From Rhodobacteraceae bacterium LNNU 3342 (GTDB lineage: Bacteria > Pseudomonadota > Alphaproteobacteria > Rhodobacterales > Rhodobacteraceae), in assembly GCA_008711135.1 (NCBI GenBank), contig VUAW01000004.1, positions 124,001 to 188,000 of the forward strand: a stretch of 64,000 nt of DNA. The letters are read 5' to 3'. Shown here one piece after another: positions 39,610 to 45,082 of this stretch. Under the pieces are notes generated by a model. It made no database searches. It saw only the letters and a program-made list of their open reading frames with translations, and was not told the DNA's origin. The translations under genes and the position numbers were made by a program. Each line of letters starts with the position of its first letter. Position 1 is the stretch's first letter.

Positions 39610-40683
39610 TCAGCTGTCGACAACGTCGTCAGACGCGTCATTCTCGCTCATGTGAAAGTCGAGCCCGTGCGAGGCGCGGATCTTCTCCTCGATCTCACCG
39701 GTAATGGCCGGGTTCGACTTGAGGAAGTTCTTCGCGTTCTCACGTCCCTGGCCGATCCGTTCGTCGCCATAGGAATACCAAGAGCCCGATTTCTCCACCA
39801 CGCCGGCCTTGACGCCAAGGTCGAGGATCTCACCGGTCTTGGAGATGCCTTCGCCGTACATGATATCGAATTCCACCTGCTTGAACGGCGGAGCCACCTT
39901 GTTCTTCACCACCTTGACGCGGGTGGAGTTGCCGACCACCTCGTCCCGGTCCTTGATCGAGCCGATGCGACGGATGTCGAGTCGCACGGAGGCATAGAAC
40001 TTCAGCGCGTTGCCGCCGGTGGTGGTTTCGGGGCTACCGAACATGACGCCGATCTTCATCCGGATCTGGTTGATGAAGATCACCATGCAGTTCGACCGGC
40101 TGATCGAGCTGGTGAGCTTGCGCATCGCCTGGCTCATCAGGCGGGCTTGGGAGCCCATCTGCATGTCGCCCATGTCGCCCTCGATCTCGGACTTGGGCGT
40201 CAGCGCCGCGACCGAGTCGACAACCACAAGGCTCACCGCCCCCGACCGCACCAGCGTGTCGACGATCTCAAGCGCCTGTTCGCCAGTGTCGGGCTGGCTG
40301 ATCAGCAGTTCGTCCAGGTTTACGCCCAGCTTGCGTGCATATAGCGGATCAAGTGCGTGTTCAGCGTCGACAAAGGCGCAGACGCCGCCCTTCTTCTGTT
40401 CCTCAGCCACGACATGCAGCGTCAGCGTAGTTTTCCCTGAACTTTCAGGGCCGTAGATTTCGATGATGCGCCCCTTCGGCAGGCCGCCGATGCCAAGGGC
40501 GATGTCCAGACCCAGCGACCCGGTAGAGGTCGCCTCGATCTCGGCCACGGGATTGTCGCCCCCCAGGCGCATGATCGAGCCCTTGCCGAACTGCCGTTCG
40601 ATCTGGGCAAGCGCGCTGTCGAGCGCCTTCTGCCGGTCTGTTGTGCGCTTGTCGGTCATGTCGAGTAAGCTCGCGGTTGCCAT
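39610..40683 (-). CDS. recA: Recombinase A
   Basis: The central homologous-recombination and SOS-signalling ATPase, 357 residues from the ATG at 40683 (AAAGGG eight bases upstream). Walker A GPESSGKT is at 78-85, Walker B region [13 protein letters not shown]-binding loop 1 region [25 protein letters not shown] and loop 2 region [31 protein letters not shown], and an acidic C-terminus ([13 protein letters not shown]). An in-frame ATG seven codons earlier is possible. A perfect SOS box 52 bases upstream indicates LexA control. Confidence 0.99.
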
Positions 40684-40749: not shown

Positions 40750-40885
40750 GCATATAGGACCAAACAGGGAACATTTCCAGAGCATTCGCTTCAAATCCAA
40801 CTTTTTAACGCAGAGGTTAAGAAGATGTTTACGCGGGCCTCGGAGCGGGGCATTTTCCCCGGGCAATAGAAAGTAAAGGATTGCC

Positions 40886-41497
40886 ATGCTTGTTTTTTGG
40901 CAGCAGCGGCTGGTGTTTCTTGCCACGCCCAAGACTGGCTCCACCGCGATTGGCGCAGCGCTCGAATCGCTGGCCAGCGTTTCTATCCAGCGTCCGCCAG
41001 AACTGAAACATACCAACGCACAGCGCTATAGGCGTTTCCTGGCCCCCTATCTTGAGAAGTCCGCGGGCCACCAATTCGAAGTGGCGGCCCTGATGCGCGA
41101 ACCGATCGACTGGCTGGGCAGCTGGTATCGCTTTCGTCAGCGCGAAGATCTGTCCGATCCCCGCAAAAGCACCCGCGACATGAGCTTCAACTCCTTTGTC
41201 GAGGCGTATCTGGAAGCTGAACGTCCGGCCTTTGCGGATGTGGGCGCCCAAAGCAAGTTCCTCACCAAGCAGGGTGAACTGATCGTCGATCACCTGTTCC
41301 GGTACGAGGATATCCAGGATTTCGTGATCTTCCTCGAAGACCGGTTGGATTGCGAGGTTCTGCTACCGCGGGTCAACGTCTCGCCGGATGCGGACGTGAC
41401 GCTGGACCCGGCACTGGCGGACCGGTTGCGCGCGGAACAGGCCGCGGATTTCGAACTGTACAACAGCATTCCCCGCTACGTTCCGGCGCATGCATGA
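40886..41497 (+). CDS. Sulfotransferase-like protein
   Basis: A 203-residue cytoplasmic protein. [17 protein letters not shown] near the N-terminus matches the 5'-phosphosulfate-binding loop of PAPS-dependent sulfotransferases, and [16 protein letters not shown] matches the 3'-phosphate-binding segment. It is shorter than typical sulfotransferases and of the small type seen in many Rhodobacterales genomes near recA. Acceptor substrate unknown. It is divergent from recA, with about 200 bases of relatively AT-rich sequence between them. Confidence 0.75.
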
Positions 41498-41526: not shown

Positions 41527-43815
41527 TCAGCTTAGCTGCGCCTGAACGGTCGCTGTCAGGTCAGTCAGCGAAAACGGCTTGGGCAGGAAGACCGAGTTCG
41601 GGATTCGCGCCTGCGTGTCGGCAAAGCTGTCCTCGGCATATCCCGACATGAAGATGACCTTGACGCCGGGACGGTCGCGCAGCGCCTCACGCACCCAGGT
41701 AGGCCCGTCCACGCCCGGCATGATCACGTCGGTCAGGAACACGTCCACCTTGACCTCGGGGTTTTCCAGAATCTCGAGCGCCTCCTCGGCATGTTCGGCC
41801 TCCAGCACCGTATAACCGCGCAGCCGCAGGGCCCGGGCGGCAAAGGCCCGTACCGGCGCCTCGTCCTCGACCAGCAGAACAACCCCCTCGCCGGGACCAA
41901 GCACCGGCGCCGCAGGCTCGGCCGGTTCCGGCGCTGCGCGGGTGCCTTCGTGCGCCGGGAAATAGAGGGAAAAGGTTGTACCCTCGCCCACGACGCTGTC
42001 TGCAAAGACGAAGCCGCCGGTCTGCTTGACGATGCCGTAGACCGTGGACAGGCCCAGCCCTGTCCCCTCGCCGGCCCGCTTGGTGGTGAAGAATGGCTCA
42101 AAGATCTTGGTCATGCTTTCCGGCGGGATGCCCACGCCCGCGTCGATCACCTGGAGTACGACATAATCCCCCGGCGGAACTACGGCCCGATCTCGGCTGA
42201 GCGGTTGCTCCAGCCGGATGTTTCGGGCGGTCACCTGCACCTCGCCGCCTTTTGGCATGGCGTCGCGGGCATTCACTACGAGGTTCATCAGCACCTGCTC
42301 CAGCTGCCTCGGGTCGGCGCGGATCAGGTCAAGTTCGGCCGGCTGCGCCACCCGAAGCCGCACCCGTTCCCCCACAAGACGGTTCAGAAGATGGCCCAGA
42401 TCGGTCAGCGCATCCCGCAGGTCAATAAGCTGCGGCTGCAGCGTCTGCTTGCGTGAAAATGCAAGAAGCTGCCCCACCAGGCTTGCCGCGCGATTGGCGT
42501 TCTGGTGGATCTGCACAAGATCGGCATAGTCCGGATCAGACTTGTCATGCCGCAACAACAACAGGTCACAATGACCTGAAATCGCAGTCAAAAGGTTGTT
42601 GAAGTCATGCGCAACGCCGCCGGCAAGCTGGCCGATCGCCTGCATCTTCTGGCTTTGCACGAACTGCGCCTCAAGCGCCTTCATCTCGGTTGCGTCATGA
42701 AGCAGCGCGTAAAGAACCGGCGTGCCTTCCTCCTGCCCGCGGCGCAGCGTCACTTGGACAAAGACCTCCTCAGGCGCATGGCTGGCCCGAACGATTTCAG
42801 GCCGGCCAAGGATGCGGCCAGCGAAGGCGTCGGCCACCCAGTCGCCAACAGGACGCCCCAGCCCTTCGACCAGATCCGACAGGCGGTCATCCGGCCCCGG
42901 CTCTGCCGCAAGCAGTTCCCGGGCAAGCCGGTTCGCGGCAAGAACCTCGCCCTGCTGGCCCAGACGCAGCAAGCCTACGGGCAGTTCCTCAAACCCAAGA
43001 CCCTGGCCCTCTTCCCCGGTTGATTGCATCTCAGCGTCTCCCAGTAGAAAGATTTCCTTGCGCCCTGCGGCGGCATTGGTCGCGGCAACAAGCATCCGCT
43101 CGCCATTCGGCAGGGTCACCTGCTGCCCCGATCGCGGCTGTTCGGGAAAAACGTCCGACCAGCGAGCAATTTCCTGTCCCAGAAGCTTCTTCATGGCGCG
43201 GTTTATCGACAGCACGCTGCCGGCAGAATTCACGATCACCCGCGGCAGTGCCACCGGCTCTGCCGCCCGGCCTTCGAGGTCCGAGCCCGCCGTTTCTTCC
43301 AGCCGCCACAGGAAACCGCCCGGAACCTGATGCACCGAAAGCCGCGCGGTGCCGCTGCAGGTCGCAACATCCTCGCGGGCGGCACCCGACTCCTCTGCCT
43401 GCCGTTGCAGTCGGTAGAGTGTGCTGGAAGGCTGCGCGAACAGCCCTTCGAGCCGCCGCCGTAGGGTCTGCCCGTCCGCGCCGAACCGGCTGGTGGCCGC
43501 GCGGTTCTGGTAATGGACAGTCCCGTCCGCGTCGGTCGTAAAGGCCGGCACTGCGTCCCGCTCCACTACACCCGCCACCTGCCGCCGCATCCGCCGCAGC
43601 GAGTGGTCGTGCAGTATCCGCAGCAACCGGAACAGCAGCACTGTCCCAAGGATCGTGCCCGCAAGCGTCAGAAGCGCCAGCCCCACGATCTGATCGGCCG
43701 CCAAGAGAGCCCCTCCGCCCAGCACAAGCACGACCGGCAGCACCGGCCAGAGCCGCGGGCTGAACTGAGAAGCCATCCGCAGGATCGGGTGCGGTGTAAG
43801 AAGCGGCTGCGGCAA
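41527..43815 (-). CDS. cckA: Hybrid sensor histidine kinase CckA
   Basis: The top kinase of the CckA-ChpT-CtrA phosphorelay controlling cell cycle, motility and, in Rhodobacterales, gene-transfer agents. 762 residues from a TTG start (GGAGA six bases upstream): two N-terminal transmembrane helices (about 23-65), PAS-like regions (about 85-380), HisKA with the phospho-acceptor H403 in [17 protein letters not shown], the ATPase domain ([49 protein letters not shown]) and a receiver domain with D696 in FLTDVIMPG. The HDFNNLLT box and order are diagnostic of CckA. A perfect CtrA box lies 46 bases upstream. Confidence 0.95.
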
Positions 43816-43859
43816 GGAATGTCTCCGTCAGAATCACATCCCTATTGCGCCCGTAAACG

Positions 43860-43876
43860 GTTAATGTGCGATTAAC
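43860..43876 (-). promoter_or_regulatory. CtrA binding site upstream of cckA
   Basis: GTTAATGTGCGATTAAC contains TTAA-N7-TTAAC, an exact match to the CtrA consensus, and is also a perfect dyad (GTTAAT / ATTAAC, 5-base centre). It lies 46 bases upstream of the cckA start codon in otherwise GC-rich sequence. Confidence 0.72.
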
Positions 43877-43921: not shown

Positions 43922-45082
43922 TCAAGCCCGGCGCATGATGCAGAGGTAGAATCCATCGCCGCCATCCAGCGGGGTCAGGCGACGCTCTTCCTCTATCCGC
44001 CAACCCGTATGCCGCGAAAGGAACGCCGCCGTCTGGTCCCGGTTCTCGGCGTCCAATAGTGAGCAGGTGACATAGGCAATCGCACCCTCATCCGCTACCA
44101 GTTCGGCCGCGATATCAAGTATCTTTGTCTGTATCCTCACAAGCTGCGCGAGCCGTTCGGATGTCAAGAGCCACTTCGCTTCCGGGCTGCGGCGCCAACT
44201 ACCGGAGCCTGAACAGGGCACGTCCAGCAGCACCAGATCAAATGGCCCCGCCGCCCGCACCTTGGCCGTCTCCAATATCCGGACGCTGGTCCCTGCCCGC
44301 GCCGCCCGCGTCGGAAGGTCCGCCATCCGCCGCGGATCGACATCATGTGCGTAAAGATCAAGCCGCGCCTGCGCTGCGGCAGCCAGCGTCTTGCCCCCGC
44401 CACCCGCGCAGTAATCCAGCACCCGCATTCCGTCCCGCAGGGGCAGCATCTCTGCGACTGCTTGGGACGCCGCATCCTGAAGTTCCACCAGCCCCTCGGC
44501 GTAAAGGCGCGAGGCCTGCACCTTTCGCGCGCCCTCCGTCACCTCAACGGCCGAGGTGGCCAGCGCAACCGGGCGCGCCACGATCCCTTCGTCGGCAAGG
44601 GCGGCAATCGCCTCTTCCCGCCCAATCCGTGAAAGGTTGACCCGCAGAAAGACCGGAGCGCGGGACTGAAGAGCTTGGAAGACGCGCGCAGTCTCTTCGC
44701 TCAAGCTCTGCTCCATCAGCGGGTAAAGCCAGTCGGGACAATCCAGCGCCTCTGCCGGCGCCATCTGCGGAGCAACCGGTACCGTTTCCGTCAGCGGCGC
44801 AGGCGCGTGCCCGACGCCGGTAAAGAACTCCGCCGGCTCCAGCCCAGTCAGCCGCAGCGTGCCGATCATCAGCCCGCGCCCCGTATCGGCACCGCCCATC
44901 GCGGCAGCGGATCGGCGGCGGCGCACGGCGTCGAAAACTAGGTCGCGGATCGCAGCGCGATCCTTAGACCCGGCAAAGCGGTTCTGCCGGGCCCAGTTGG
45001 TCAGCACCTGCTCGACCGGGCTGCCCGCCAGCCAGCGGTCAAGAATCTCGATGGCTGCGGCCACCCGGGCGGCTGGTGTCAT
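43922..45082 (-). CDS. rsmB: RsmB/NOP family RNA (cytosine-5) methyltransferase
   Basis: A 386-residue SAM-dependent m5C methyltransferase. An N-terminal NusB-like helical domain (AAAIEILDRWLAGSPVEQVLTNWARQNRFAGSKDRAAIRDLVFDAVRRR) precedes the Rossmann core: VLDYCAGGGGKTLAAAAQ (motif I), LLDVPCSGSGSWRRSPEAKW (motif IV with one catalytic Cys) and AYVTCSLLDAEN (motif VI with the nucleophile Cys). RsmB modifies C967 of 16S rRNA in E. coli; other RsmB/NOP members have other targets, so the exact site is inferred. It lies 33 bases downstream of guaB with its own GAGGTAAG and is probably in the same operon. Confidence 0.9.
   Translation of the reverse strand: MTPAARVAAAIEILDRWLAGSPVEQVLTNWARQNRFAGSKDRAAIRDLVFDAVRRRRSAAAMGGADTGRGLMIGTLRLTGLEPAEFFTGVGHAPAPLTETVPVAPQMAPAEALDCPDWLYPLMEQSLSEETARVFQALQSRAPVFLRVNLSRIGREEAIAALADEGIVARPVALATSAVEVTEGARKVQASRLYAEGLVELQDAASQAVAEMLPLRDGMRVLDYCAGGGGKTLAAAAQARLDLYAHDVDPRRMADLPTRAARAGTSVRILETAKVRAAGPFDLVLLDVPCSGSGSWRRSPEAKWLLTSERLAQLVRIQTKILDIAAELVADEGAIAYVTCSLLDAENRDQTAAFLSRHTGWRIEEERRLTPLDGGDGFYLCIMRRA

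Follow-up and report, generated by a model that had tools for sequence, protein, structure and literature searches.

The window analysed here, a 64,000-nucleotide stretch of contig VUAW01000004.1 from Rhodobacteraceae bacterium LNNU 3342, carries at positions 43860-43876, in front of the kinase gene cckA, a strongly conserved site that, on comparative sequence evidence, is very probably a genuine binding site for CtrA. We consider it likely that phosphorylated CtrA (CtrA~P) binds this box and activates cckA, giving positive feedback through the CckA-ChpT-CtrA relay. A CtrA-cckA loop is already predicted in the literature; our analysis adds a GANTC motif at the cckA promoter, CtrA sites at divL and ctrA, and a degenerate CtrA-like site upstream of recA. 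Conservation of GANTC beside the CtrA box is a less expected addition than the loop itself. The box and the genes that flank it are as follows.

43860-43876, minus strand: full CtrA box, TTAA-N7-TTAAC towards cckA, 5'-GTTAATCGCACATTAAC-3' (sequence; conserved in 101 of 107 rsmB-cckA gaps)
41527-43815, minus strand: cckA, hybrid histidine kinase with PAS, HisKA, HATPase and receiver domains and a TTG start (NCBIfam models, domains, relatives, synteny)
43823-43826, minus strand: Shine-Dalgarno sequence GGAG of cckA, 7 bases before the TTG start (sequence)
43922-45082, minus strand: rsmB, 16S rRNA cytosine methyltransferase, whose place upstream of cckA anchors the synteny (models, domains; adjoins cckA in 107 of 110 loci)

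On the plus strand, positions 43860-43876 read GTTAATGTGCGATTAAC, with TTAA at 43861-43864, seven intervening bases and a second TTAA at 43872-43875; the segment 43861-43875 thus carries the CtrA full-site consensus TTAA-N7-TTAA(C) at its exact spacing. Because the pair is flanked by G and C, TTAA-N7-TTAAC is legible on either strand. The box sits in the intergenic gap between rsmB and cckA, 45 bases from the cckA start, a distance supported by the GGAG and by the relatives, whose alignments begin here too, at residues 1-3 (TTG at 43815). The best NCBIfam models for the downstream gene are CckA of Brucella and of Caulobacter, below their curated cut-offs; together with the kinase and receiver domains and the synteny with rsmB, they bear out the initial annotation, which had named the gene cckA and placed a TTAA-N7-TTAAC box 46 bases before it. 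The letters confirm that box at about the claimed distance. It had also been called unlikely by chance, and it is indeed the only TTAAN7TTAA in the window, where dinucleotide shuffles give an expectation of 0.04. The whole genome (3.78 Mb) contains 14 copies, compared with 5 for the pattern read backwards. Neither a sigma-70 consensus promoter nor an intrinsic terminator was found in the rsmB-cckA gap.

Conservation was assessed in 110 cckA loci, nearly all of them Rhodobacteraceae by name or kinship; whole-genome searches supplied 30 and GTDB contigs the other 80. In 107 of these rsmB precedes cckA, and 101 of the 107 gaps contain an exact copy of TTAA-N7-TTAA, in most cases 45-55 bp ahead of the cckA start; several of the six box-less gaps hold a one-mismatch version. 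The 772 kb of sequence spanned by the loci includes 104 TTAA-N7-TTAA in all, about 101 at cckA and only 3 elsewhere. Upstream of other genes in the same loci the box is rare or absent (recA, 2 of 81; rsmB, 0 of 91; guaB, 0 of 23), and the shuffled expectation is 0.0015 per 120-bp region. The 101 box-bearing gaps represent 99 distinct sequences, and the 99 loci aligned for the comparison were selected because they carry the box. Between-locus identity in these box-selected sequences is near random both in the 7-base spacer (0.31) and in the 20 bases upstream (0.29), yet both TTAA are retained, so selection maintains the pair. Relatives thus show constraint at the same promoter against a diverged background, and the suggested check, conservation of the box across Rhodobacterales cckA upstream regions, was very strongly passed within Rhodobacteraceae. 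In 13 genomes from outside the family, no full box was found close to the start of the longest cckA frame, where starts are uncertain, suggesting a family trait and no universal rule.

The sequence between the box and cckA is also patterned. Positions below are counted from the start of the box towards cckA.

43855-43857, minus strand: TTT two bases after TTAAC, which fits the extended CtrA half-site TTAACCAT and gives direction (T in 0.72 and 0.81 of loci at +18 and +19)
43844-43846, minus strand: predicted -10 region, A-A-T at +29 to +31, with the -11 A of CtrA-activated promoters (A conserved in 89 of 99 loci)
43834-43835, minus strand: predicted cckA transcription start, +40/+41 (from the conserved A and the R. 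sphaeroides spacing)

The window copy of the half-site is TTAACCGTTT, in which the T of the extended form fits and the A does not. A TT flank is present on the cckA side in 61 of 99 loci and at the mirror position in 3 of 99, so the site faces cckA. The conserved A, at +29 or +30, lies about 14 nt past TTAAC-n-n-TTT. In CtrA-activated promoters of R. sphaeroides the site ends 23-24 nt ahead of the mapped start, and position -11 is always A (PMC6180460), and both features are satisfied if the cckA start is placed at +40/+41; the A at +29/+30 then fits the near -35 geometry of CtrA activation. The fla2 promoters of R. sphaeroides share this spacing and this A with the predicted cckA promoter, although they serve flagellar genes and have mapped starts, whereas the cckA start is predicted. 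By this analogy, the conserved flanks match the geometry of a CtrA-activated promoter pointing at cckA.

The remainder of the circuit, comprising the CckA-ChpT-CtrA relay and divL, is encoded in the same genome. The ctrA orthologue shows 77% identity to a Caulobacter CtrA sequence used as query, a ChpT-type HPTransfase is present, and divL was assigned by its PAS domains, absent kinase domain and sequence reading. A full box precedes divL in 26 of 30 relatives' loci. In LNNU 3342 itself it lies 27 bp before the gene (G000:C33:232552-232566, or L117:3053-3067 in our numbering). Upstream of ctrA lies TTAAC, mostly at about -55, with a degenerate left half, mostly GTAA, at the right spacing. Throughout the family the ctrA promoters read TTAAC(CATT), with a full TTAA-N7-TTAA in 0 of 30, and the LNNU 3342 copy lies about 56 bp upstream (L126, G000:C44); this is perhaps a weaker site that is kept weak. 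CtrA sites therefore occur at all three genes, full at cckA and divL and degenerate at ctrA, the pattern described for cluster B of the Rhodobacterales. Our genome-wide look at boxes and their genes covered the 14 exact sites, which also include boxes near a TadE pilus gene, a GGDEF protein, a glycosyltransferase and others. Pili and c-di-GMP enzymes are known CtrA targets, with which the TadE and GGDEF boxes agree.

A related site was found within the window before recA, a gene at 39610-40683 on the minus strand.

40816-40832, minus strand: degenerate CtrA-like site TAAA-N7-TTAAC(C), about 130-150 bp upstream of recA (1 mismatch)

CtrA-like sites with at most one mismatch occur upstream of recA in 77 of 87 loci, mostly near -150, and most loci have a LexA-type GAACN7GAAC at about -65; these motifs suggest that CtrA and LexA may act together on recA. 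A 203-aa open frame on the opposite strand (40886-41497, plus strand) occupies the interval from recA to cckA; it has no Pfam match, and its start resembles sulfotransferase-like proteins by eye only.

In the mechanism that we propose, the cckA box would be an operator for phosphorylated CtrA that replaces the -35 element of the promoter. CtrA~P on 43861-43875, about -41 to -27 relative to the predicted start near 43835, would recruit RNA polymerase and activate cckA; more CckA would then lead to more CtrA being phosphorylated through ChpT, closing a direct positive feedback that the CtrA sites at divL and ctrA would reinforce. We infer CtrA binding, activation over repression and net positive feedback from the features above, and consider binding and activation very probable. 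CckA is also capable of phosphatase activity, and the net effect may therefore vary with the state of the enzyme.

Several elements of this loop have been anticipated. For cluster B of the Rhodobacterales, Brilli 2010 predicted that ctrA, cckA and divL all have CtrA sites and noted feedback (PMC2877005); by comparison, the present analysis covers about 100 loci and gives the exact position, orientation, promoter geometry and conserved GANTC. For D. shibae, Wang 2014 and Koppenhofer 2019 predicted a CtrA site at cckA and proposed a feedback loop, and the cckA transcript was lower without ctrA, an effect reported in stationary phase only (PMC4046655, PMC6473078); that work was expression-based, whereas ours is comparative and concerns another genus. 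Zan 2013 located a full CtrA site of this kind 62 bp before cckA in Ruegeria sp. KLH11, but supplying extra ctrA left a cckA-lacZ fusion unchanged (PMC3692519). By our own reading, native ctrA was still present in that test, so the site may have been saturated. In R. capsulatus, as cited in the KLH11 paper, the cckA transcript is unchanged without ctrA and CckA protein falls (PMC3692519). The CtrA-box reading of the initial annotation is backed by box conservation, pathway genes and promoter geometry; the feedback loop that it proposed is probable and was already predicted, and the expression data conflict. The near-universal conservation of the box suggests that the experiments which saw no expression effect in two relatives missed the relevant condition.

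The same lack of an expression effect in two relatives (PMC3692519) would also fit a weak or condition-dependent role, in which CtrA binds but represses or only modulates cckA and negative feedback limits CckA; CtrA of Caulobacter both activates and represses. However, the box is placed near -35, the position of activating CtrA sites, whereas repressing sites overlap the -10 region (PMC6180460), and in D. shibae loss of ctrA lowers the cckA transcript. We therefore regard repression or modulation as improbable and favour activation of cckA by CtrA~P.

It is far less likely that the box serves another regulator that recognizes inverted repeats, for example of the FNR/Crp or LexA type. Such a protein could use the perfect dyad in the LNNU 3342 genome, GTTAAT-N5-ATTAAC, whose 6-bp arms (GTTAAT/ATTAAC) make the 'longer perfect dyad' of the initial annotation literally true; moreover, it has been suggested in the literature that CtrA and FNR motifs overlap, and LexA is reported, in a citing paper, to act on R. 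capsulatus cckA. Yet TTAA is itself palindromic, which leaves only 2 of the 6 arm positions as extra, and a full GTTAA...TTAAC is found in 28 of 99 distinct loci, where about 27 are predicted from the separate base frequencies (G 0.53, C 0.51). Composition accounts for the dyad, which we rejected as a selected inverted repeat; the emphasis placed on it was unsupported. One-sided conservation of the flanks and the recurrence of the motif at divL and, in degenerate form, at ctrA also argue against another regulator. LexA-like pairs with at most one mismatch occur in 12 of 99 gaps (shuffles: mean 4.5, maximum 11); LexA was accordingly rejected as the cause of the conserved gap motifs, for which it could account in a subset at best. 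Chance AT-rich letters, although short gaps are AT-richer than genes, are refuted by retention of the box in 101 of 107 gaps amid diverged surroundings, far above the shuffled expectation, and have virtually no probability left.

A second conserved element overlaps the predicted transcription start. GANTC is the target of CcrM.

43831-43835, no strand assigned: GANTC, in the form GATTC on the minus strand, a candidate target for methylation by CcrM where transcription is predicted to start (68 of 99 distinct loci)

GANTC lies between box and start in these 68 loci, mostly at +40 to +44, and is the commonest of the 256 NN-N-NN patterns there (shuffles: mean 18, maximum 34). Counting only the last 60 bases ahead of the start, 65 of 98 cckA loci have it, in contrast to 0 of 81 for recA, 5 of 91 for rsmB and 1 of 23 for guaB; of the other circuit genes, divL has it in 4 of 30 loci and ctrA in 6 of 30. 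At least 20 changes are needed on the cckA tree, where 63 of the 99 loci are positive. The motif was thus gained or lost many times, and plain ancestry was rejected as its explanation. GcrA and a CcrM-type protein, the latter assigned by its RAMA domain, are encoded in the genome. For a promoter under GcrA/CcrM control, GANTC is expected no more than 40 bp from the start, with which its place over the predicted cckA start would agree.

In Brevundimonas, cckA belongs to the GcrA and CcrM regulons, having a GANTC and changed expression in gcrA/ccrM mutants, and in Alphaproteobacteria as a whole cckA is one of the 50 genes ranking highest for GANTC (PMC7987155). The link between cckA and GANTC is therefore not wholly new; it is common to both groups, but Brevundimonas belongs to the Caulobacterales, whereas here, in Rhodobacteraceae, GANTC adjoins a CtrA box and falls on the predicted start. 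We found no description of that arrangement at cckA in Rhodobacteraceae in the searchable literature. Brilli 2010 called the cluster B regulon isolated from CcrM (PMC2877005), and a 2021 survey of ctrA promoters doubted a major role for methylation in Rhodobacterales (PMC8116508). As a tentative proposal, somewhat short of an even chance, the cckA promoter of Rhodobacteraceae may join two inputs, CtrA~P at -35 and CcrM methylation of the GANTC on the transcription start, perhaps read by GcrA, which would change the feedback gain. Passage of replication through cckA would leave the GANTC hemimethylated and so alter this gain once per cell cycle, and methylation would act on the CtrA pathway via the kinase gene, unlike in Caulobacter, where it acts via ctrA.

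For us, most of the interest lies in the conserved GANTC and in the strong conservation of the box against the weak expression effects reported. If the GANTC works, DNA methylation would gain a role in Rhodobacterales of the kind that the 2021 survey doubted (PMC8116508). Positive feedback through the kinase that feeds CtrA can give its activation a switch-like character, which would bear on why only some Rhodobacteraceae cells turn motile or make gene transfer agents.
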